Shown: positions 648 to 23,578 of the stretch, piece after piece | Layout: every line of letters starts with the position of its first letter | Position numbering within the stretch: position 1 is the first letter of the stretch | Assembly (NCBI RefSeq): GCF_038396635.1 | Contig: NZ_CP121687.1 | Location: forward strand, 1,426,001-1,490,000 | Source of the DNA: Defluviitalea saccharophila | GTDB lineage: Bacteria; Bacillota; Clostridia; Lachnospirales; Defluviitaleaceae | Direction of reading: 5' to 3' | DNA: 64,000 nucleotides | The notes under the pieces: generated by a model | What the model was told of the DNA's origin: nothing | Database searches by the model: none | The model's input: the letters and a program-made list of their open reading frames with translations, nothing else | Made by a program: the position numbers and the translations under genes

Positions 648-848
648 ATGAATCATTTAAATCAGAATTCCTATGGACTCCATGATATTCCTGAACCCTT
701 CAGAGGACAGAATAATACTTTTGGCAATACGACTGTAAATAACCAAGCTGAAACTCAGTCGGCAACTGTAAGTGGTACCAGTCGATTTGCTTTAGAAGAT
801 TTTCTTTTAATTTTACTTCTATTTTTACTGCTAACAGATCAGAAATAA
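648..848 (+). CDS. Small protein with hydrophobic C-terminus
   Basis: 66 residues, preceded by AAGGAGG 6-7 bases before the ATG. The first ~45 residues are polar and Asn/Gln/Thr-rich. The last ~20 form a hydrophobic segment (FLLILLLFLLL) ending in TDQK. It is followed at once by a terminator. I do not recognise a named family. The leucine/phenylalanine-rich tail resembles the neighbours at 980, 2755 and 3722 and the C-terminus of the protein at 3086-3571, so I place it in the same local set of small, probably membrane- or coat-associated proteins. Confidence 0.65.
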   Translation: MNHLNQNSYGLHDIPEPFRGQNNTFGNTTVNNQAETQSATVSGTSRFALEDFLLILLLFLLLTDQK

Positions 849-856
849 TTTCTTTC

Positions 857-881
857 AAAAAAGCCCTCAAAGGGTTTTTTT
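857..881 (+). terminator. Rho-independent terminator
   Basis: Short stem CCCT-CAA-AGGG flanked by A-run and T-run, ending in TTTTTTT, 9 bases after the stop codon of the small gene at 648-848. Confidence 0.75.
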
Positions 882-889
882 GTTGTGTA

Positions 890-917
890 ACACTTAATGT
901 GACAAGGTCATATTATA
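890..917 (+). promoter_or_regulatory. Candidate sigma-K promoter
   Basis: AC at 890-891, 17 bases, then CATATTATA at 909-917. This fits the known SigK pattern (AC in the -35 region, CATAnnnTA at -10). It lies about 60 bases before the small hydrophobic gene at 980. A similar site precedes the gene at 3722. Based on pattern only. Confidence 0.35.
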
Positions 918-979
918 TAACATACGAATGAAAACCCCTCTTACTTATTACTCAACATACTGTGAAAGGAGGTGCAATA

Positions 980-1135
980 ATGTCAGGCAAAGGCTTTGGA
1001 ACAAATAATATCATCTTCTTATTCTTCTTCTTATTATTATTTAACGAAGGATTCGGTTCTAAATTTGACAACTCTCTATTCTTCTTCTTATTAATCTTCT
1101 TAATTTTATTCGGTGGATATGGATTTGCTTACTAA
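980..1135 (+). CDS. Tiny hydrophobic protein, FFFLLLLF family
   Basis: 51 residues, start ATG at 980 with AAAGGAGGTG about 7 bases upstream, stop at 1133-1135. Translation begins MSGKGFGTNN, followed by two hydrophobic blocks, IIFLFFFLLLF and SLFFFLLIFLILF, separated by a short glycine/acidic linker, and ends GGYGFAY. The same two-block layout, with near-identical FLFFFLLLF and SLFFFL-IFLILFG stretches, is found in the protein at 2755-2961. The glycine/aromatic-rich ends recall small spore-coat or YjcZ-type sporulation proteins, but that is analogy only. Function unknown. Confidence 0.75.
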   Translation: MSGKGFGTNNIIFLFFFLLLFNEGFGSKFDNSLFFFLLIFLILFGGYGFAY

Positions 1136-1160
1136 AAAAGCAGCGACTTCATCGCACTTG

Positions 1161-1250
1161 TGAAATAAGAAAGTTTAGTCCCTTTCTTTCTTATTTCAAA
1201 ATATATAAAAGACAAAAACCAGAGAACACTCCTCTGGTTTTTGTTTTTTA
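1161..1250. terminator. Two hairpins between convergent genes
   Basis: Two perfect 13-bp inverted repeats: TGAAATAAGAAAG at 1161-1173 with its mirror at 1186-1198, and ACAAAAACCAGAG at 1212-1224 with its mirror at 1232-1244 followed by a T-run. The second is a classic bidirectional terminator for the small plus-strand gene at 980 and the minus-strand protease at 1269. Confidence 0.8.
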
Positions 1251-1268
1251 GGGACAAAATTTCTATCT

Positions 1269-2528
1269 TTAATACCTTCTTCTGTATATCCCCTCTTCTC
1301 CAATGAGTTTTTGAACGTCAATTAGCCCCCATCCTTGCTGTTCCTGAGGAAACTTAAGATCATTCGTACAGCTCTTAAGACGAAGCTTAATGTCATTAGG
1401 GGTTACATAGGGATGTCTCTCCAGAAAAAGCGCCAATGCTCCTGATACCATGGGTGTTGCCATAGATGTTCCACTTTTCTTTACATAATAAGTCGTTAAT
1501 GGGGTTGTGGGGTCTTTTTCATCCTTAGGAATATATTTTGTATCTGAAGCACAGGACATAATATCGGATCCTGGTGCTACCACATCGGGCTTTTTAATGC
1601 AGGCTCTGGTAGGTCCTCTGCCGGAATAGTCCGATATGGTATCTCCATGAATATTTACAGTCTTTTGATCATCCGATGCCCCGACTGTAATAATTTTTCT
1701 GCTGACTCCGGGAGATGTAATACTTTGCATTCTCGGTCCGTCGTTCCCTGCTGCTACAAGAGTAACAATCCCTGCATCCCATGCTGCATTAACTGCCTTC
1801 ACCAAAGGATCATTTTCTCCTTCTCTGTCAGGACTTCCTATGGACAAATTCGCCACTCTTATGTTGTATCTGTCCTTATTGTCAATCATCCATTGAATCC
1901 CTGCCAGTACATTAGATGTACTGCCGCTGCCTTTTTCATCTAATATTTTAATGCCTATTAGATTGCAGGATGGAGCAATACCTTTATATTGCCCATTCGA
2001 TTTTGTACCATCTCCTCCGATAATGCCTGCCACATGGGTGCCATGGCCATTATCATCATAGGGTTTTTCATATCCGTTTACAAAATCCTTAAAAGCAATG
2101 ATTCTGCTTCTTGGGTACATAAAGTCCTCATGGGGATAAATACCTGAATCCAATACTGCAACCCCTATGCCTCTACCTGAATACCCTCTCTGATGAACCC
2201 AATCTGCATGAATAACCTGTCTTGCGATATCCATTTGGGCAGTTATGTGGGAATCCTGCTGTACCCTTCGTACCCCTTTTAACTGCTTTAATCTGCCGAG
2301 ATTTTCCTTTGGTATTTCTACAACATATGAATCAATCATAGGAAGTCTGTACTTTACTTTCCCTAAACTACAAATTTGGTGTTCTTCTTCATCATCCATA
2401 CTACATTCTACAATCACTTGAACAGTTTCATTAGATGAATCACCCGAATGAATGGAACTGCCCTGTGAATGCGTTTTGCCTCTTTGACTCATAATGCCTA
2501 ATAAAAGCAATAAAAGAGACGTATCCAT
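1269..2528 (-). CDS. Subtilisin-family (S8) serine protease, AprX-like
   Basis: 419 residues with a complete catalytic triad: Asp127 (AVLDSG), His162 (GHGTHVAG) and Ser355 (SGTSMATP), plus the oxyanion Asn262 (AAGNDG). Residues 36-100 look like an I9-type propeptide/inhibitor domain. There is no typical signal peptide; the N-terminus is a short Leu-rich run then polar residues, as in AprX-like intracellular subtilases. Ribosome site AAAGGAG 7 bases before the ATG. It sits inside the block of tiny hydrophobic proteins and faces them. It could process or turn over these proteins during sporulation, but this is inferred from position only. Confidence 0.9.
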   Translation of the reverse strand: MDTSLLLLLLGIMSQRGKTHSQGSSIHSGDSSNETVQVIVECSMDDEEEHQICSLGKVKYRLPMIDSYVVEIPKENLGRLKQLKGVRRVQQDSHITAQMDIARQVIHADWVHQRGYSGRGIGVAVLDSGIYPHEDFMYPRSRIIAFKDFVNGYEKPYDDNGHGTHVAGIIGGDGTKSNGQYKGIAPSCNLIGIKILDEKGSGSTSNVLAGIQWMIDNKDRYNIRVANLSIGSPDREGENDPLVKAVNAAWDAGIVTLVAAGNDGPRMQSITSPGVSRKIITVGASDDQKTVNIHGDTISDYSGRGPTRACIKKPDVVAPGSDIMSCASDTKYIPKDEKDPTTPLTTYYVKKSGTSMATPMVSGALALFLERHPYVTPNDIKLRLKSCTNDLKFPQEQQGWGLIDVQKLIGEEGIYRRRY

Positions 2529-2754
2529 ATAATTACTCCTTTCCTGATTTCCCTAATCAATGTATAGCTATATAAATAATGTATTAAACCCTTTGGATTT
2601 AGTTTACATTTTTCTCATTTTATTAAAAAAAACTATTTTAATGTATGAGTTTGTCCCAAGTTTCATCATTTTTATCATTATTGTGTCATTAATATATTTC
2701 TGGTGCATAGAATATAAACGTGAGATATAAATTTTAAATAAGGGAGGCTTTTTT

Positions 2755-2961
2755 ATGGCAGAATCTAAATCTTGCTTCGGAGGAAACTCTAATATTTTAT
2801 TCTTGTTCTTCTTCTTACTTCTTTTCAATAATGGCGGAATTTTCGGCTTTGATACAAAAGGTCAAGGAGGCTGCGGCGGATTCGGCGATAATTCGTTATT
2901 CTTCTTCTTAATTATCTTCTTAATTCTATTTGGCAATGGATTTGGCGGCGGATTTTGCTAA
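2755..2961 (+). CDS. Small hydrophobic glycine-rich protein, FFFLLLLF family
   Basis: 68 residues; GGGAGG ribosome site at about 2741. Two hydrophobic blocks, ILFLFFFLLLF (residues ~15-25) and SLFFFLIIFLILF (~47-59), flank a glycine-rich centre containing GGCGGFG, and the protein ends GGGFC. It is a clear paralogue of the protein at 980-1135, with an enlarged centre and three cysteines. The upstream CATAGAATA at 2706-2714 fits a SigK -10 box but no matching -35 is clear. Two hairpins follow. Function unknown; a spore-coat or cortex-membrane role is a guess. Confidence 0.75.
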   Translation: MAESKSCFGGNSNILFLFFFLLLFNNGGIFGFDTKGQGGCGGFGDNSLFFFLIIFLILFGNGFGGGFC

Positions 2962-2966
2962 AATGA

Positions 2967-3036
2967 AAGGAACGGAAAATACCGTTCCTTAATTAAAAAG
3001 CAAGCAGAGGGATTTCCCTCTGCTTGCTGCTTTTTT
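2967..3036. terminator. Tandem terminator hairpins
   Basis: AAGGAACGG (2967-2975) with CCGTTCCTT (2982-2990), then GCAAGCAGAGGGA (3000-3012) with its mirror at 3015-3027 followed by a T-run. They lie between the convergent genes at 2755 and 3086. A third hairpin (3031-3076) follows, a partial copy of the dispersed repeat. Confidence 0.75.
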
Positions 3037-3076
3037 ATTGCATAGGAAATTCCTCCGTATTTCCTATGGGATAAAA
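3031..3076. repeat. Partial copy of dispersed hairpin repeat (copy C)
   Basis: TTTTTTATTGCATAGGAAAT (3031-3050) followed by an imperfect mirror ending in ATAAAAA. The first arm matches the terminal hairpin of the full element at 34003-34144 exactly over about 20 bases. Only the terminal hairpin is present here; the GC-rich left part is missing. Confidence 0.6.
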
Positions 3077-3085
3077 ACCTGTATC

Positions 3086-3571
3086 CTAATTATTAAATTT
3101 TGAACTGCCTAGAAGTAAAATAAGAAGAATGAAGATGAATAATTCTCCGTTTTCCATGCCTATTCCTACGGATTTGCTATTCATACAGTTTTCATCAATT
3201 TCATATACCCCATCGTCTTGAATCAACGGCCTTTCTTCCTCGCTGCCGCTGCTTTGAAGCTGTACGGATTTTACTTGCTGACTAATATTTTGAAAGGTTC
3301 TAAAGGTATTCATAGCATCAATGAGCTGATCGATTTGTAAGTGAATATTTGGATTTAAAAAGGGTTTTACGGCTTGCAGCAGAGCAATTTCTCTAGTTGG
3401 ATTTTCTTGTGCCTGCATTCTGTTGCCTTGAATAAGAGATTCGATTCTATTTATATACTTTTCTTTAAACTTATTTCTAATTATTTCCATGATTTCATTT
3501 AAATCTTGTTGCAAATCTATGCTAGTTCCTAATACTCCTCCAAGATTTTGAAGCAATTGGTTGTTTGACAT
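3086..3571 (-). CDS. Helical-repeat protein with hydrophobic tail
   Basis: 161 residues, mostly predicted helix, ribosome site AGGAGGGGG before the ATG. Residues ~65-100 contain a motif LLQAVKPFLNP...QIDQLI. It recurs in the proteins at 4008 (three times) and 4818 (once) as hydrophobic-x-A-[IVM]-x-P-x-L/M, four variable residues, then Q-x-x and a hydrophobic helix. The last ~20 residues (GELFIFILLILLLG) are a single hydrophobic segment like that of the tiny neighbours, so this protein links the two local families. I recognise no named domain. Function unknown. Confidence 0.75.
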   Translation of the reverse strand: MSNNQLLQNLGGVLGTSIDLQQDLNEIMEIIRNKFKEKYINRIESLIQGNRMQAQENPTREIALLQAVKPFLNPNIHLQIDQLIDAMNTFRTFQNISQQVKSVQLQSSGSEEERPLIQDDGVYEIDENCMNSKSVGIGMENGELFIFILLILLLGSSKFNN

Positions 3572-3664
3572 TTTCCCCCTCCTAGACCATTAATTAAAAT
3601 CTTCTTATACCAATGTATGATCATCAGTAAAAATCTGTTAATTCTTTATTGTATTATTATATGA

Positions 3665-3692
3665 ACCTTTTTATTACGTCCATCATATAATA
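3665..3692 (+). promoter_or_regulatory. Candidate sigma-K promoter
   Basis: AC at 3665-3666, 17 bases, CATATAATA at 3684-3692, then about 30 bases to the start codon at 3722. It has the same spacing and -10 form as the candidate at 890-917. Confidence 0.35.
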
Positions 3693-3721
3693 ATTTAGAA
3701 ATTCTATAAGTAGGTGGTTTT

Positions 3722-3910
3722 ATGAAAAATGAAAAAATGCTGCTTCTGAATGAGATGGTTTTTTTATTCTTTTTTCTCCTTTTATTTGATCCAGACAATA
3801 CATTAACAGATGAAAAACTCTTCTTTGCTCTTATTGTATTTTATGTCTTATTTGTAATAGACCTATCTCCCGGTCGTAAAGCAAATGGTAATTTACAAAA
3901 AACAAACTAG
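3722..3910 (+). CDS. Small hydrophobic protein, FFFLLLLF family
   Basis: 62 residues. Block one (MVFLFFFLLLFDPDN) matches the first hydrophobic blocks of the proteins at 980 and 2755. Block two (LFFALIVFYVLFVIDL) is in the equivalent place. Unlike its paralogues it has charged ends and no glycine-rich linker. The ribosome site is weak (TAGGTGG), 6 bases before the ATG. It leads a plus-strand run with the genes at 4008 and 4818. Function unknown. Confidence 0.65.
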   Translation: MKNEKMLLLNEMVFLFFFLLLFDPDNTLTDEKLFFALIVFYVLFVIDLSPGRKANGNLQKTN

Positions 3911-4007: not shown

Positions 4008-4787
4008 ATGCATGAGGAGAACCAAGCACCTACCGAAGTTTCTGAAGATCATGTTAATGATGGATTGGATACTGATAAAATCCTTGAAATGGCAAAGCTA
4101 TTTAAAACCTTAATGGCTAATGATCAAGATGAAGATGAAGTTAATAACAAAGATGAAAATAAGGATGAAGTTAAAGTTAACCAAGATACTGAAGTCAACA
4201 AAAGCTCGGAGCAAAACAACATCTTTCAATTATTAGAAATGGCCAAACTGTTTTCAAATTTAATGGGGAACAATAGTACACAAAATCAGCCTCAAATAAC
4301 AAATTCAGCCCCTATAGTATATCCTTCCTCTTCTATTTTATTTGATGAAACCGTGCACACCCCTCAAATGAAGGTAATAAAGGCTGCTATTCCCTATATG
4401 AAAGTGCATCACCAAAGGGTTCTCGGAGTTTTTATCAAGTTCCTGGAATTAAAAAAAGTAATGGATATATACAAAAATAATAGTAGTCCTTTATCAACAG
4501 TTAGTTTATCAACGAATCCCAATTGGAAAATTGATATGTTAACTTCCATCCGTCCTCACTGTACGGTGGAAAAGCAATGTGTGGTAGATATGATGAGTAA
4601 AGTAATCGATATAGGTGAACTTATGAAAAAAATGCATTCCCTAAAACTCAATGAATCTGTAAAAACCCAAACAGATACGAATGGGCCCAATCAAAAGCAG
4701 GCACTCATTCAAGCTCTATCCCCTATGCTAAATGAAAACCAAAGACAAATGCTTAATATGCTGACTACTTTAATGGGCCCTACGTAA
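4008..4787 (+). CDS. Helical-repeat protein with acidic linker
   Basis: 259 residues from the ATG at 4008, chosen over an upstream ATG at 3972 because AGGAGG ends 7 bases before 4008. The N-terminal half has two copies of a unit reading LEMAKLF-x-x-LM-x-N, separated by a very acidic Asp/Glu/Asn/Lys linker. The C-terminal half carries three copies of the local helical repeat: VIKAAIPYMKVHHQR, MLTSIRPHCTVEKQC and LIQALSPMLNENQRQ. There is no signal peptide or membrane segment. Next gene starts 30 bases downstream. No named family recognised; I infer a structural or scaffold-like sporulation protein. Confidence 0.75.
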   Translation: MHEENQAPTEVSEDHVNDGLDTDKILEMAKLFKTLMANDQDEDEVNNKDENKDEVKVNQDTEVNKSSEQNNIFQLLEMAKLFSNLMGNNSTQNQPQITNSAPIVYPSSSILFDETVHTPQMKVIKAAIPYMKVHHQRVLGVFIKFLELKKVMDIYKNNSSPLSTVSLSTNPNWKIDMLTSIRPHCTVEKQCVVDMMSKVIDIGELMKKMHSLKLNESVKTQTDTNGPNQKQALIQALSPMLNENQRQMLNMLTTLMGPT

Positions 4788-4817: not shown

Positions 4818-5078
4818 ATGGGAAAGGATATTCTAAATGAACTGGATCCGGAAATGATAAAAGAAGCGAAAGCTGTAATGGAGGGACTTAAAGGAAAATC
4901 AGATCAAGAAATATTAGAAAGTCTTGTTAAACTCGCTGCACAAAAAAAGCAGTCCAATAAGAAGTTAACAAAAGAACAAAGTGCTGCTATTTTGGAAGCT
5001 ATGAAAGAAACCCTTCCTCCTAATCAAAGAAAGAAATTTGAAGCCTTGCTTCAAATGATGCAAATGATGAATATGTAA
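4818..5078 (+). CDS. Small helical protein sharing the local repeat
   Basis: 86 residues, GAAGGAGG ribosome site, probably co-transcribed with the gene at 4008. Highly charged and helical. Its C-terminus (ILEAMKETLPPNQRKKFEALLQMMQMM) carries one copy of the same repeat that ends the 4008 protein (LIQALSPMLNENQRQMLNMLTTLM). A terminator follows directly. No named family recognised. Confidence 0.75.
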   Translation: MGKDILNELDPEMIKEAKAVMEGLKGKSDQEILESLVKLAAQKKQSNKKLTKEQSAAILEAMKETLPPNQRKKFEALLQMMQMMNM

Positions 5079-6949: not shown

Positions 6950-7429
6950 TTATTCAGTTTCATTTGCTATATCTAAAACCTTCACATATAAATTATTATC
7001 AATATATATATTATTGTATATCAACTGATCTAAAAGTGGCTTAATCTGATTAATATACCCTTTTTCTTTAGCTTTTATCAAAATCCCCATCGTTCCTGTT
7101 ATCTTAAGTCCTAAATACTTCGCATACTTTCGTGCTAGCAAATCATCTATTATACATAAATCTGCGTTTATTTCTTCTGCTAAAATCATTACTTCTACTT
7201 CTCCTTTATGGAGACTTGTTTTAAAGAATTTTTTAGCTTCTTCATTTTGTATTTTCTTTAATATAACAAAATCTGCATTGTCCAAAAAGTTATCTTTACT
7301 TTCTACCGATAGTTCTTCATAGACTCCATAAGGAATATAAACTTGATCATAAAGCAATTTTAATAGATTAAGATTATCTATTTTATAAAGTGATATCAAT
7401 GGAGTAGAGTTTACTACGACCTTACGCAT
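6950..7429 (-). CDS. PIN-like DUF3368 protein, probable toxin
   Basis: 159 residues of the DUF3368 branch of PIN-domain nucleases. The N-terminus reads VVVNSTPLISL (first metal-site region), the middle GEVEVMILAEE supplies a conserved Glu, and the CIIDDLLAR motif supplies paired Asp residues. The start overlaps the end of the UPF0175 gene by 8 bases, the usual layout of this toxin-antitoxin type. Predicted to cut RNA when freed from its partner; the target is unknown. Confidence 0.85.
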   Translation of the reverse strand: MRKVVVNSTPLISLYKIDNLNLLKLLYDQVYIPYGVYEELSVESKDNFLDNADFVILKKIQNEEAKKFFKTSLHKGEVEVMILAEEINADLCIIDDLLARKYAKYLGLKITGTMGILIKAKEKGYINQIKPLLDQLIYNNIYIDNNLYVKVLDIANETE

Positions 7430-7679
7430 TTTGAATATCCTCTAAAAGTTCATTTTCTTTTTCAAATCTGAATATAGTTACTCCTTGCTCTGAAAGATAC
7501 TCTATAAAATTTTCTTTATTCATTTCTGCTAGTTCTGCACTTTGACCCAGTGATAATTTTTTCTCTTTATAATATTTTACTGCTAAAGCTTTTTTCATTT
7601 CTTTAACAATATCTTCACTACTTTGTCTTAATGTCAAAACTATTTCTTGTGGAAGTTTTACACTTGTATTGATATACAT
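7422..7679 (-). CDS. UPF0175 family antitoxin
   Basis: 85 residues. It matches the UPF0175 pattern: an N-terminal strand with VKLPQEIV, a helix EMKKALAVKYYKEKKLSLGQSAELAEMNKENFIEYL, and a short C-terminal tail likely to wrap the toxin. It is translationally coupled to the DUF3368 gene by an 8-base overlap. Such antitoxins usually bind their own promoter; no clear operator is visible in 7680-7740. Confidence 0.85.
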   Translation of the reverse strand: MYINTSVKLPQEIVLTLRQSSEDIVKEMKKALAVKYYKEKKLSLGQSAELAEMNKENFIEYLSEQGVTIFRFEKENELLEDIQNA

Positions 7680-7747
7680 ATTTTTACACTTCCCTTCTAG
7701 TTTATATATTTCTATTATACCACTATATTTTAATTGTTAAAAGAATA

Positions 7748-15164: not shown

Positions 15165-15331
15165 ACAATGCTCTGAATATAGTACCGACGGCGATGGAAC
15201 TCAAAAACAGATAGATTTTACCGTCGTACTCACAGCATTGTAGCATTGTTTTCCTTACCCCATAAAGGGCAAGTCCCTTCGGGATGGCTAAAAAGTTTCC
15301 TCGGGCTTAAGAATCTAAAAACAGATAGCCC
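15165..15331. other. Structured non-coding left end of the insertion sequence
   Basis: Between the left terminal repeat and the transposase stop there are 283 bases without a convincing gene. They hold a nested hairpin: ACAATGCT (15165-15172) with AGCATTGT (15234-15241), enclosing AGTACCGACGG (15181-15191) and CCGTCGTACT (15221-15230). A second stem has GGGCT at 15303-15307 and AGCCC at 15327-15331. It could be a terminator, a transposition-control site or a small RNA. Confidence 0.5.
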
Positions 15332-16779
15332 TAGCTCGATTGAGACTTCTGCATCTGTAGAATGGTCTGCTGACCAAGAAAGAGAAGCAACTGCCATTTG
15401 CCAGGCATATTACTTGCATTTTGAAGTAAGGCTACTTCATTTAAAGGACGTTTCCAGCTGTATAAATCATGGGGACGAAGGAAGTTATAGTAGGCAACCC
15501 ACAGACTAACGCCATAGGCTGCACCATCTTCACTACCATAACCACAAGTAACTCGATAGGAAGCTTTAAAGGTACGATTCAGTCGTTCGATCATCTGTTT
15601 AAAAGGACGAAATTTTTTCGATACAGCATCATCATTGGATAGCCCAATAACTTGAGTAATATCAAAAAACTTTTGTTCCTTTAAAGCAAACTGCTGAGCA
15701 GCTAAAGGATAGGCGCTGTAACCATCAGCAATAAACTTAAAAGCTTTTGGAAGACCATTCTTAAAGTTATTAAGAGCCATACGCATAGCTAAAATACAAG
15801 GCCCAACACCACGATTATCAGAAACCTGATAACCGAGAATGGACTTGGAAACAGCATCCATTATAAACCAAATATATCCCTTGATGCCTTTTACCTTGAT
15901 ATAAGTCTCATCTGCAGCAAGGGTAGAAGAAGGTTTATAGTCGTAGGTATCCACAAAAGGTTTAATAAGCACAGCGGCAGTACGTGCATAATTAGCAACC
16001 ATGGTATGAGAAATAGAGACACCATGGATATCTCTTAAAGCTTGAGCAGTTTTTCGAAGTGAAAGTCCAAGATTAACATGATAAGTAAGGCAAAGCCCCA
16101 TGATATGAGCTGATTGTTTCTTGAATTTAAAGGAAGTAGCCCAAGACGGTAAAGGGTTTAAATCCATGTCAAAGAAATCTAGAGTGAATTCACGGTAGAT
16201 GTAGTGAAGTTTATAATTATGCTTTTTTGAAGGACTTAAGTCTTTAGGCAGCTTCTTAAGATTAGCAGTGTAATAGGAACAGTTCTTGTTTACACACTTG
16301 TGAACACGGAAGTGTTTCCGATCTTTCTTAGGAGTAAGTGAATGTCCACAATAAGGACATACAAAAGTGATCGGTGTTTTAACTATTTCACCGGTTACAA
16401 ATGTCTGGCCACAAATCTTGCACTGAAACTGACCTTTACCGCCATTATTATCGTAGAGATACTGATGAGGAGCATTGCAAAGAGGGCAAACAGTATCTTC
16501 GGGAACTGTTCTAGGTTTATTCTTTTGAGTACGAACAGGCTTTAAAACTTTACCATACTTCCATTGATAGTAATCAAGAAGGAAATGAAAGTCCTGTTTT
16601 TCAAACTTCCGGATAATGGGAAGTTTGTCAGTTTTAAATTTTTGGTAATCAGGGCTATTAGAATCATCGAAAGCCCACTGTTTAAGAGGGATATGCTTTG
16701 AGATAAATAATAATAAATCAAAAATTTGTTTATGCAAGTATTGAATATATAGTAGTAAGTAAGTTATAATTGAGTCCAT
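15331..16779 (-). CDS. DDE transposase with N-terminal zinc ribbons
   Basis: 482 residues. Two Cys-rich ribbons in the N-terminal half (CPLC...CKIC and CPYC...CVNKNC), then a helix-turn-helix-like region (LSLRKTAQALRDIHGVSISHTMVANYAR) and a catalytic core with LAADETYIKVKGIKGYIWFIMDA (first Asp), FIADGYSAYPLAA (second Asp) and QMIERLNRTFKASYR (Glu). This is the DDE order of IS240/IS6-type integrase-fold transposases. Intact and probably functional. It reads opposite to the aro operon. Confidence 0.9.
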   Translation of the reverse strand: MDSIITYLLLYIQYLHKQIFDLLLFISKHIPLKQWAFDDSNSPDYQKFKTDKLPIIRKFEKQDFHFLLDYYQWKYGKVLKPVRTQKNKPRTVPEDTVCPLCNAPHQYLYDNNGGKGQFQCKICGQTFVTGEIVKTPITFVCPYCGHSLTPKKDRKHFRVHKCVNKNCSYYTANLKKLPKDLSPSKKHNYKLHYIYREFTLDFFDMDLNPLPSWATSFKFKKQSAHIMGLCLTYHVNLGLSLRKTAQALRDIHGVSISHTMVANYARTAAVLIKPFVDTYDYKPSSTLAADETYIKVKGIKGYIWFIMDAVSKSILGYQVSDNRGVGPCILAMRMALNNFKNGLPKAFKFIADGYSAYPLAAQQFALKEQKFFDITQVIGLSNDDAVSKKFRPFKQMIERLNRTFKASYRVTCGYGSEDGAAYGVSLWVAYYNFLRPHDLYSWKRPLNEVALLQNASNMPGKWQLLLFLGQQTILQMQKSQSS

Positions 16780-22026: not shown

Positions 22027-23578
22027 ATGCCTTCTATTAAAATCACTAAAAAAAATAAAGAGGATAAAAACAATGATGTTCCTACCTCTCCTGTAAATGC
22101 TGAAACCCTTACCGGTAACCTGCAAATTGATATAGAGACTTTTAAAAAAATATTTTTCTTTCCTCAAAATAAAGACTTTATCATCCGCACAATACAGTTA
22201 AAAGGCTTCAATGTGGATGGATGCTTCCTCTATTTAGACGGCTCTACCTCCGTCGATACCCTTACCAGTAATATTATTAAACCCTTAATGGAAAGTGGTC
22301 CTAAAAACATAGAAGATAACCCTATAGATTATATTACAAATAATATTATTACTTCTAAAAACGCTCAACGTATCTCTAATATCTCAGATATCACAAAAGA
22401 TATCGTTAAAGGCAATACGATTATACTGATTCAAGGTTCCCTTGAAGCCCTTTCAGTTTCTACAACGGAGTTTGAGCACCGCCCTGTTGAAAAACCCGTC
22501 AATGAAAACGTTATAAAAGGACCGAAGGAATCTTTTGTTGAATCTGCGGATACAAATCGCTCCCTTAATAAGAAAGCATTTTAAAAGTGAAAAACTGGTT
22601 TCTGAGAGTATTGAAGTCGGAGAGAAATCTAAAAATGATGTATATATGATGTATGTAGAAGGAATCACTGATCCCAACTTAATCAATACTGTCAGGGAAA
22701 GAATAAAAGGCATCAAAACCGATTTTCTGTCCAATGTTTCTATGCTTGAGCAGTTTATCGAAGAGAGAAGTTATTCTCTTATTTCTACCGTAATGTACAC
22801 AGAACGCCCTGACAGATCTGCGGCTTTTTTAGCAGAAGGCCATGTGATATTCATTATTGACGGCTCTCCGGGCTGTTTGATCGTTCCTGTAACCTTTTGG
22901 TCTTTTTTTCATGCAGCTGAAGATCAGTATCAACGATGGTTCTATGGCAATTTTATTAGAATCGTAAGGTTGTTGGCAGTATTGATTTCACTTTTAACTC
23001 CTACTTTGTATATTGCCATCGTAAATTTCCACGGAGAAATGATCCCCAGCGATTTAGCCGTTTCGATTGCAGCTTCCAGAGAAGTACTTCCTTTTCCCGT
23101 AATCACAGAAATACTTTTAATGGAAATATCTTTCGAACTCATCAGAGAAGCCGGAGTAAGAGTACCTACAACCATAGGACCAACCATAGGAATTGTCGGC
23201 GCCCTGATACTGGGTCAAGCTGCTGTTGAAGCCAATATCGTAAGTCCTATTTTAGTAATTGTCGTAGCAATTACAGGATTATCTTCCTTCGCAATACCGG
23301 AAACTGCCCTAAGCTATACCATTCGAATCTCCAGATTTCTGTTACTGATGGCAGGAGCAAGTATGGGTTTCTTTGGAATTTCTCTTGTTTTAATTATAGG
23401 GTTAGCCTATATACTTAGCATTACGTCCTTTGGAGTTCCTTTTATGTCTCCATTGGCTCCTCATTTTCCTTCCAGTAACGATACCTTTACAAGAGCACCT
23501 ACCTTTAAACAAGGACTTAGACCATCAAATGTATCTAAATCAGATTTTATAAGAAGAAAAAAACCTAAGAGAAAGTAG
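22027..23578 (+). pseudogene. Spore germination receptor subunit A (GerA/GerKA family), frameshifted
   Basis: Two overlapping frames make one GerA-family protein of about 517 residues, the usual length. The first (22027-22584) gives the N-terminal soluble domain and ends ...GPKESFVESADTNRSL. The second, in the +1 frame, resumes at about 22560 with IAPLIRKHFKSEK and continues through YVEGITDP and the membrane half (PTLYIAIVNFH, GVRVPTTIGPTIGIVGALILGQAAV) to 23578. The family expects ESLRTNISLIRKR here. Two missing bases (or one extra) near 22556 explain the break: AAT-CGCT would read AAT-ATC-GCT. It could be a true mutation or a sequence error. First gene of a germination operon. Confidence 0.85.

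Follow-up and report, generated by a model that had tools for sequence, protein, structure and literature searches.

The window analysed here is a 64 kb stretch of DNA from a single-contig clostridial genome of 3.01 Mb. It contains a cluster of genes for mostly small proteins in the order A (648), B (980), subtilase (opposite strand), C (2755), D (3086, opposite strand), E (3722), F (3972/4008) and G (4818), as listed in Table 1. An earlier note on this DNA had placed a subtilase gene among genes for tiny proteins; the ORFs were found where it had put them, and a match to PF00082 was obtained for 1269-2528. The ATG of B at 980 is preceded by AAAGGAGG, the mechanical ORF opening earlier at a GTG at 962, and the ATG of F at 4008 lies behind GAGGAGG, this ORF being also listed from 3972. 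Elsewhere in the window, a PIN-domain-like gene with a small upstream UPF0175-like gene forms a toxin-antitoxin-like pair (6950-7690, minus strand), for which no match was found at the corresponding place in the closest relative, G001. A transposase-like ORF of 482 aa with zinc-ribbon and integrase-type features (15331-16779, minus strand) lies between genes of aromatic amino-acid biosynthesis.

Table 1. Genes and promoter-like elements of the cluster, in window coordinates
Feature	Position	Strand	Characteristics and evidence
A, 66 aa protein	648..848	+	'LxDIPEPFR' N-terminus; C-terminal block EDFLLILLLFLLL; orthologues, dN/dS
sigmaK-type promoter of 980, AAC...CATATTATA	889..917	+	kept in most relatives; L040 8889 = window 889
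B, 51 aa twin-block protein, C-terminal Tyr	980..1135	+	alignment, dN/dS
S8 subtilase, 419 aa	1269..2528	-	PF00082 E 2.7e-55; D126/H161/S354 triad and N261
sigmaK-like promoter of 2755, TCA-N17-CATAGAATA, imperfect -35	2686..2714	+	upstream alignment, conserved
C, 68 aa twin-block protein, C-terminal Cys	2755..2961	+	alignment, dN/dS, AF2
D, 161 aa; helical N-part with KPF, DGVYEIDENC, C-terminal hydrophobic tail	3086..3571	-	alignments A3/A9
sigmaK-type promoter of 3722, AAC...CATATAATA	3664..3692	+	L040 11664 = window 3664
E, 62 aa twin-block protein, second block degenerate	3722..3910	+	profile match, dN/dS
F, 259 aa, repeated KPF/IPY-type helical motifs	4008..4787	+	alignment A4; hhalign to A5, A6
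G, 86 aa, one KPF-like motif (AMKETLPPNQRKKF)	4818..5078	+	alignment A5; hhalign to F

The proteins encoded at 980, 2755 and 3722 were proposed earlier to share two phenylalanine/leucine blocks in fixed order with Gly-rich linkers, and this is borne out: they form one family of about 50-70 aa, in which the second block of the 3722 protein is degenerate. Alignment clearly identifies the proteins from 980 and 2755 as paralogues, which have in common a first block N-I-[IL]-F-L-F-F-F-L-L-L-F-N and a second block D-N-S-L-F-F-F-L-[LI]-I-F-L-I-L-F-G. The 3722 protein retains block one and has a weakened block two (KLFFALIVFYVLF); it matches the twin-block profile with an E value of 0.0011 in the window genome, and its orthologue in G001 with 1.7e-6. 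When the window was filtered for RBS-led ORFs of 40-90 aa with two Phe/Leu blocks, exactly these three ORFs were recovered, and none were found in 20 Markov copies of the 64 kb, so that the similarity exceeds what chance would give. Comparison of the window with orthologues gave dN/dS values of 0.08-0.12 for 980, mostly 0.07-0.33 for 2755 and 0.15 for 3722 (0.05-0.08 for the subtilase, for comparison), which indicates that the twin-block ORFs are coding and under purifying selection. Most C copies end in Cys and most B copies in Tyr or Phe. AF2 predicted two helices in the 2755 protein, at residues 9-25 and 43-60, with low confidence (pLDDT 57.8, few input sequences). Other families show the blocks as plain internal repeats, as in MGFIDSFKGNEESLLFFFLLLVILFEKGDWFGDSDESLLFFFLLLVILFQ, and have up to six copies in a row; convergence may account for the likeness of such hydrophobic, low-complexity blocks between orders. 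It was also observed that Met-rich or Leu/Met twin blocks, instead of Phe/Leu, lie beside the same subtilase in L077, L078, L079, L082 and L084, which represent several families.

The subtilase scores 188.2 bits against PF00082, for which the gathering score is 21.8, and is thus a member of peptidase family S8. The catalytic residues D126, H161 and S354 and the oxyanion Asn N261 are intact in every orthologue with alignment coverage, and the closest solved structures by sequence are subtilisin-like serine proteases (3afg, E 7.6e-72). In order to avoid circularity, its linkage to the small ORFs was assessed at 20 loci picked solely by the presence of a subtilase relative. Six of these contain a twin-block ORF, partly Met-rich (for example MPGFGGNNMMMMLLLMMMMQGGSMDSSFMMLLLLMMMQGGG...), in every case no more than about 1.1 kb from the subtilase and in four no more than 210 bp from it, and no twin-block ORF was found away from the subtilase in 178 kb of these loci. 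No leuS was found in them either, which argues that the linkage is more than an inherited neighbourhood at one site. In family f61 of another order the subtilase is divergent to twin-block genes, which are followed by a KPF-repeat protein. Lack of conservation of the small ORFs or of their link with the protease in related genomes had been named earlier as telling against the grouping; both proved to be conserved, the synteny in 6 of the 20 blindly chosen loci and in the same layout among relatives. Twin-block genes also occur without the protease, and the idea that it constantly accompanies the tiny proteins was given up for that reason.

When 2755 was used as the query, 14 of the order's 96 genomes proved to contain relatives, most often a pair of copies separated by 1.7-2 kb, and with a twin-block profile the count was 17 of 96 (E<=1e-4). 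The family is kept in at least 13 related genomes, usually with two copies on either side of an intact S8 subtilase. The window's family keeps the full layout from A to G, as do members of several further families, mostly beside leuS and fusA. The complete cluster is also present on a MAG contig filed under 'Candidatus Epulonipiscium sp.', almost every gene matching at 100% protein identity. In several families twin-block genes are present in the absence of a subtilase. Outside the class twin-block proteins are rare, with five matches in a 299-genome sample of the phylum, the window's own genome included.

The proteins at 648 and 3086 had been described as ending in similar hydrophobic tails. 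The tails (EDFLLILLLFLLLTDQK and GELFIFILLILLLGSSKFNN, respectively) are real and are conserved in alignments. Orthologues of A were found in the window's family and in L034, together with shorter relatives, and its dN/dS is 0.18-0.40. For 3086 the description of the tail stands but is incomplete, since proteins of its type are the tightest partner of the subtilase. The D-type signature is of the form SIHxDG[IV]Y[ED][IM]DxxC and is accompanied by a hydrophobic tail. Such a protein comes directly after the subtilase in most of the subtilase-selected loci, and in L077, L078, L079 and L084 its start overlaps the subtilase end, which makes D the closest partner of the protease. In the window's family, L029-L032 have a second D-type ORF overlapping the subtilase end, and in the window's genus D is seen only as the separate copy at 3086, for which AF2 gave a pLDDT of 48.4 (few input sequences).

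D, F and G have in common a short helical motif around KPF/KPY. By hhalign, D matched alignment A6 with a probability of 91% and G matched F with one of 82%; the pairs F with A6 (45%) and D with F (24%) were weak. A KPF profile built solely from the window's order matched 18 of the 25 twin-selected loci from other orders, as against 3 of 40 control ends, two of these three control matches overlapping D genes, and there were no matches in 58 kb of the window. Where twin-block genes of other orders lack the protease, a KPF/KPY-motif protein is their common neighbour. The association of twin-block and KPF proteins is thus the widest one, with the subtilase added over part of the distribution. A recurring three-gene set adjoins twin-block genes in L041-L048, L053 and L064 of other orders. 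It encodes an 'NLNKKxQQ..MDP' protein of about 108 aa, a KPY protein and a protein of about 115-127 aa with a double 'DDLLLLALLFILL..DDELLILILLFLFFIG' tail, and it often adjoins an FAD-dependent reductase and, in L064, a SleB-like cortex-lytic enzyme.

Upstream regions were searched for a sigmaK-type motif, AC-N16-18-CATANNNTA, in the form in which the consensus is generally known. It occurs 30 times in the clusters, with 8 expected. Promoters of the sigmaK and sigmaE types have been described (PMC517825, PMC3789822). The motif lies immediately upstream of 980 and 3722 in exact form, and 2755 has a conserved version with an imperfect -35; 648 has a sigmaE-like promoter and a conserved CATAnATTTATA upstream, and at the adjacent gene, 5135, the promoter is instead of the vegetative TTGACA type. 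With kinship ignored, the motif precedes 18 of 68 twin-block ORFs and 17 of 298 long control ORFs (Fisher 3e-6), the -10 element alone precedes 33 of 68 and 44 of 298, and sigmaA-like sites show the opposite trend, with 4 of 68 against 39 of 298. For many twin-block ORFs of other orders no sigmaK-type promoter was found upstream.

A SigK above the curated cut-off is encoded in the genome, as is SpoIVA. In the order, all 17 genomes with twin-block proteins have SpoIVA, the base rate being 75 of 96 (p 0.0095, kinship ignored), and in one family twin-block proteins are present in the two genomes with SpoIVA and absent from the five without it (p 0.048, kinship ignored). Across the class the association is weak, with SpoIVA in 22 of 25 twin-block genomes as compared to 278 of 391 (p 0.038, kinship ignored); two of the three exceptions lacking SpoIVA are genomes 61% complete. 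Most genomes with SpoIVA have no recognisable twin-block proteins, which are therefore not required for sporulation in general. In one family (G131, at L131 1709-3184 and 9655-11423, and also G158) about 6.5 kb separate the subtilase/twin-block cluster from spoIVA, and this apparent link was treated as weak because der, plsY and other housekeeping genes intervene. The window also contains a GerA-type germinant receptor subunit (22027-23578, plus strand) that appears split: its two overlapping ORFs, of 185 aa and 347 aa, are read in different frames, pointing to a frameshift or a sequencing error. GerAB- and GerAC-like genes follow.

When ten window proteins and 42 family members were compared with Pfam and NCBIfam, only the subtilase matched above chance, and a literature search of open-licence papers found no description of such a system. 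YjcZ is a tiny, Gly-rich and hydrophobic spore protein. The 42 twin-block proteins gave no Pfam or NCBIfam match to YjcZ or tiny_TM_bacill at E<=1, and neither did the window proteins. The yjcZ gene belongs to the sigmaK regulon (PMC517825), and YjcZ-type proteins resemble the twin-block proteins in size, glycine content, hydrophobicity and sigmaK-type control but have one hydrophobic block and not two. The aprX gene of B. subtilis is listed as a sigmaK gene (PMC3416734). AprX is like the cluster protease in being an S8 subtilase with an intact triad and in its late mother-cell control, which is likely for the cluster protease, with no orthology implied. We know of no twin-block or DGVYEID partner in the neighbourhood of aprX. 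YabG is a mother-cell sporulation protease with a role in assembly of the spore surface layers of C. difficile (PMC10681294). The maturation role proposed below would be analogous, although YabG is a cysteine protease and the cluster enzyme a serine protease of family S8. By analogy, the likeness to YabG and AprX supports the idea of a maturation protease without implying membership. SpoVM and CmpA are small membrane proteins of the forespore that guide assembly of the spore envelope; they too are micro-proteins, likened here by description only, but their sequence differs and the twin-block design is multi-copy. CspBA and CspC are likewise S8 family proteases linked to clostridial sporulation. 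Assignment of the subtilase to these germination proteases was rejected, as it scores 78 bits against a cut-off of 1250 for the NCBIfam CspBA model and 60 against 675 for CspC. The twin-block family and its gene arrangement are new, but they are of a general type already known, in which small hydrophobic spore proteins accompany a sporulation protease.

The family and its selection, the synteny, the catalytic residues, the promoter enrichment and the association with spore formers are established here. In our reading, to which we give a probability of about 0.55, the cluster is a sporulation locus expressed late in the mother cell, encoding micro-proteins of the spore envelope that are assembled with the KPF and tail proteins, the subtilase being the likely maturation protease. 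Location, assembly, cross-linking and the substrate of the protease are what we infer. The products would go to the spore envelope, either to the coat/exosporium or to the outer forespore membrane, where 980, 2755 and 3722 could be inserted or packed by means of their two short Phe/Leu helices, which a flexible Gly-rich linker would join. Their conserved C-terminal Cys or Tyr might, by conjecture, serve in cross-linking or capping. The helical KPF-motif proteins (3086, 3972 and 4818) and the tail-bearing 648 and 3086 could form a surrounding scaffold. The subtilase would be made in the mother cell; the DGVYEID..C protein of 3086 type would be its most likely target for maturation, and other cluster members possible ones. 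The earlier idea of a structural or signalling role is thereby narrowed: a structural or spore-envelope role fits better, and signalling is unsupported.

It could be argued that only shared regulation places the protease beside the tiny genes, as functionally unrelated members of a late-sporulation gene island, given that several families have the twin-block genes without the subtilase and that in many subtilase loci no twin-block ORF can be recognised. We hold this to be unlikely, since the pair persists at more than one genomic site, adjoining leuS/fusA in some families and with no leuS in the retrieved DNA of others, and since its divergent layout recurs in another order. The twin-block proteins could also be holin- or type I toxin-like membrane peptides for lysis or permeabilisation of the mother cell late in sporulation, with the subtilase then degrading mother-cell proteins. 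Their tiny size, the two hydrophobic helices predicted by AF2 at low confidence, the sigmaK-type timing and an AprX-like protease without an obvious signal peptide would suit such a role. It is nevertheless quite improbable in view of the up to 3-6 divergent copies per locus, the constant KPF/tail partners, the conserved terminal Cys/Tyr and blocks of 12-14 residues, which are short for spanning a bilayer.

The subtilases PatA and PatG act on cyanobactins, and the small ORFs adjoining a subtilase, with a sub-cut-off PatA-type similarity that is weak and common to many subtilases, bring to mind precursors of pheromone- or RiPP-like secreted or signalling peptides matured by this enzyme. That is very improbable: there is no leader/core pattern, no transporter or modifying enzyme is seen within the cluster, the entire sequence is conserved with both blocks included, the timing is of sigmaK type, and the tightest partner of the protease is D and not a tiny protein.

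Taking the cluster as a spore-envelope locus, we tentatively suggest, as a possibility somewhat short of even odds, that it belongs to an undescribed envelope-building system of clostridia, composed of twin-block proteins, KPF/KPY helical proteins and DGVYEID..C tail proteins, with a dedicated subtilase that triggers or trims the assembly in one branch. Many spore-envelope proteins of clostridia have no counterpart in Bacillus, and small hydrophobic proteins are poorly detected by gene callers and standard proteomics. The searchable twin-block profile makes it possible to find unannotated copies. A conserved multi-copy family with a promoter signature and a protease partner offers concrete targets for studies of clostridial spore assembly, and such a system, if true, would be a solution to envelope building separate from the coat proteins of Bacillus.
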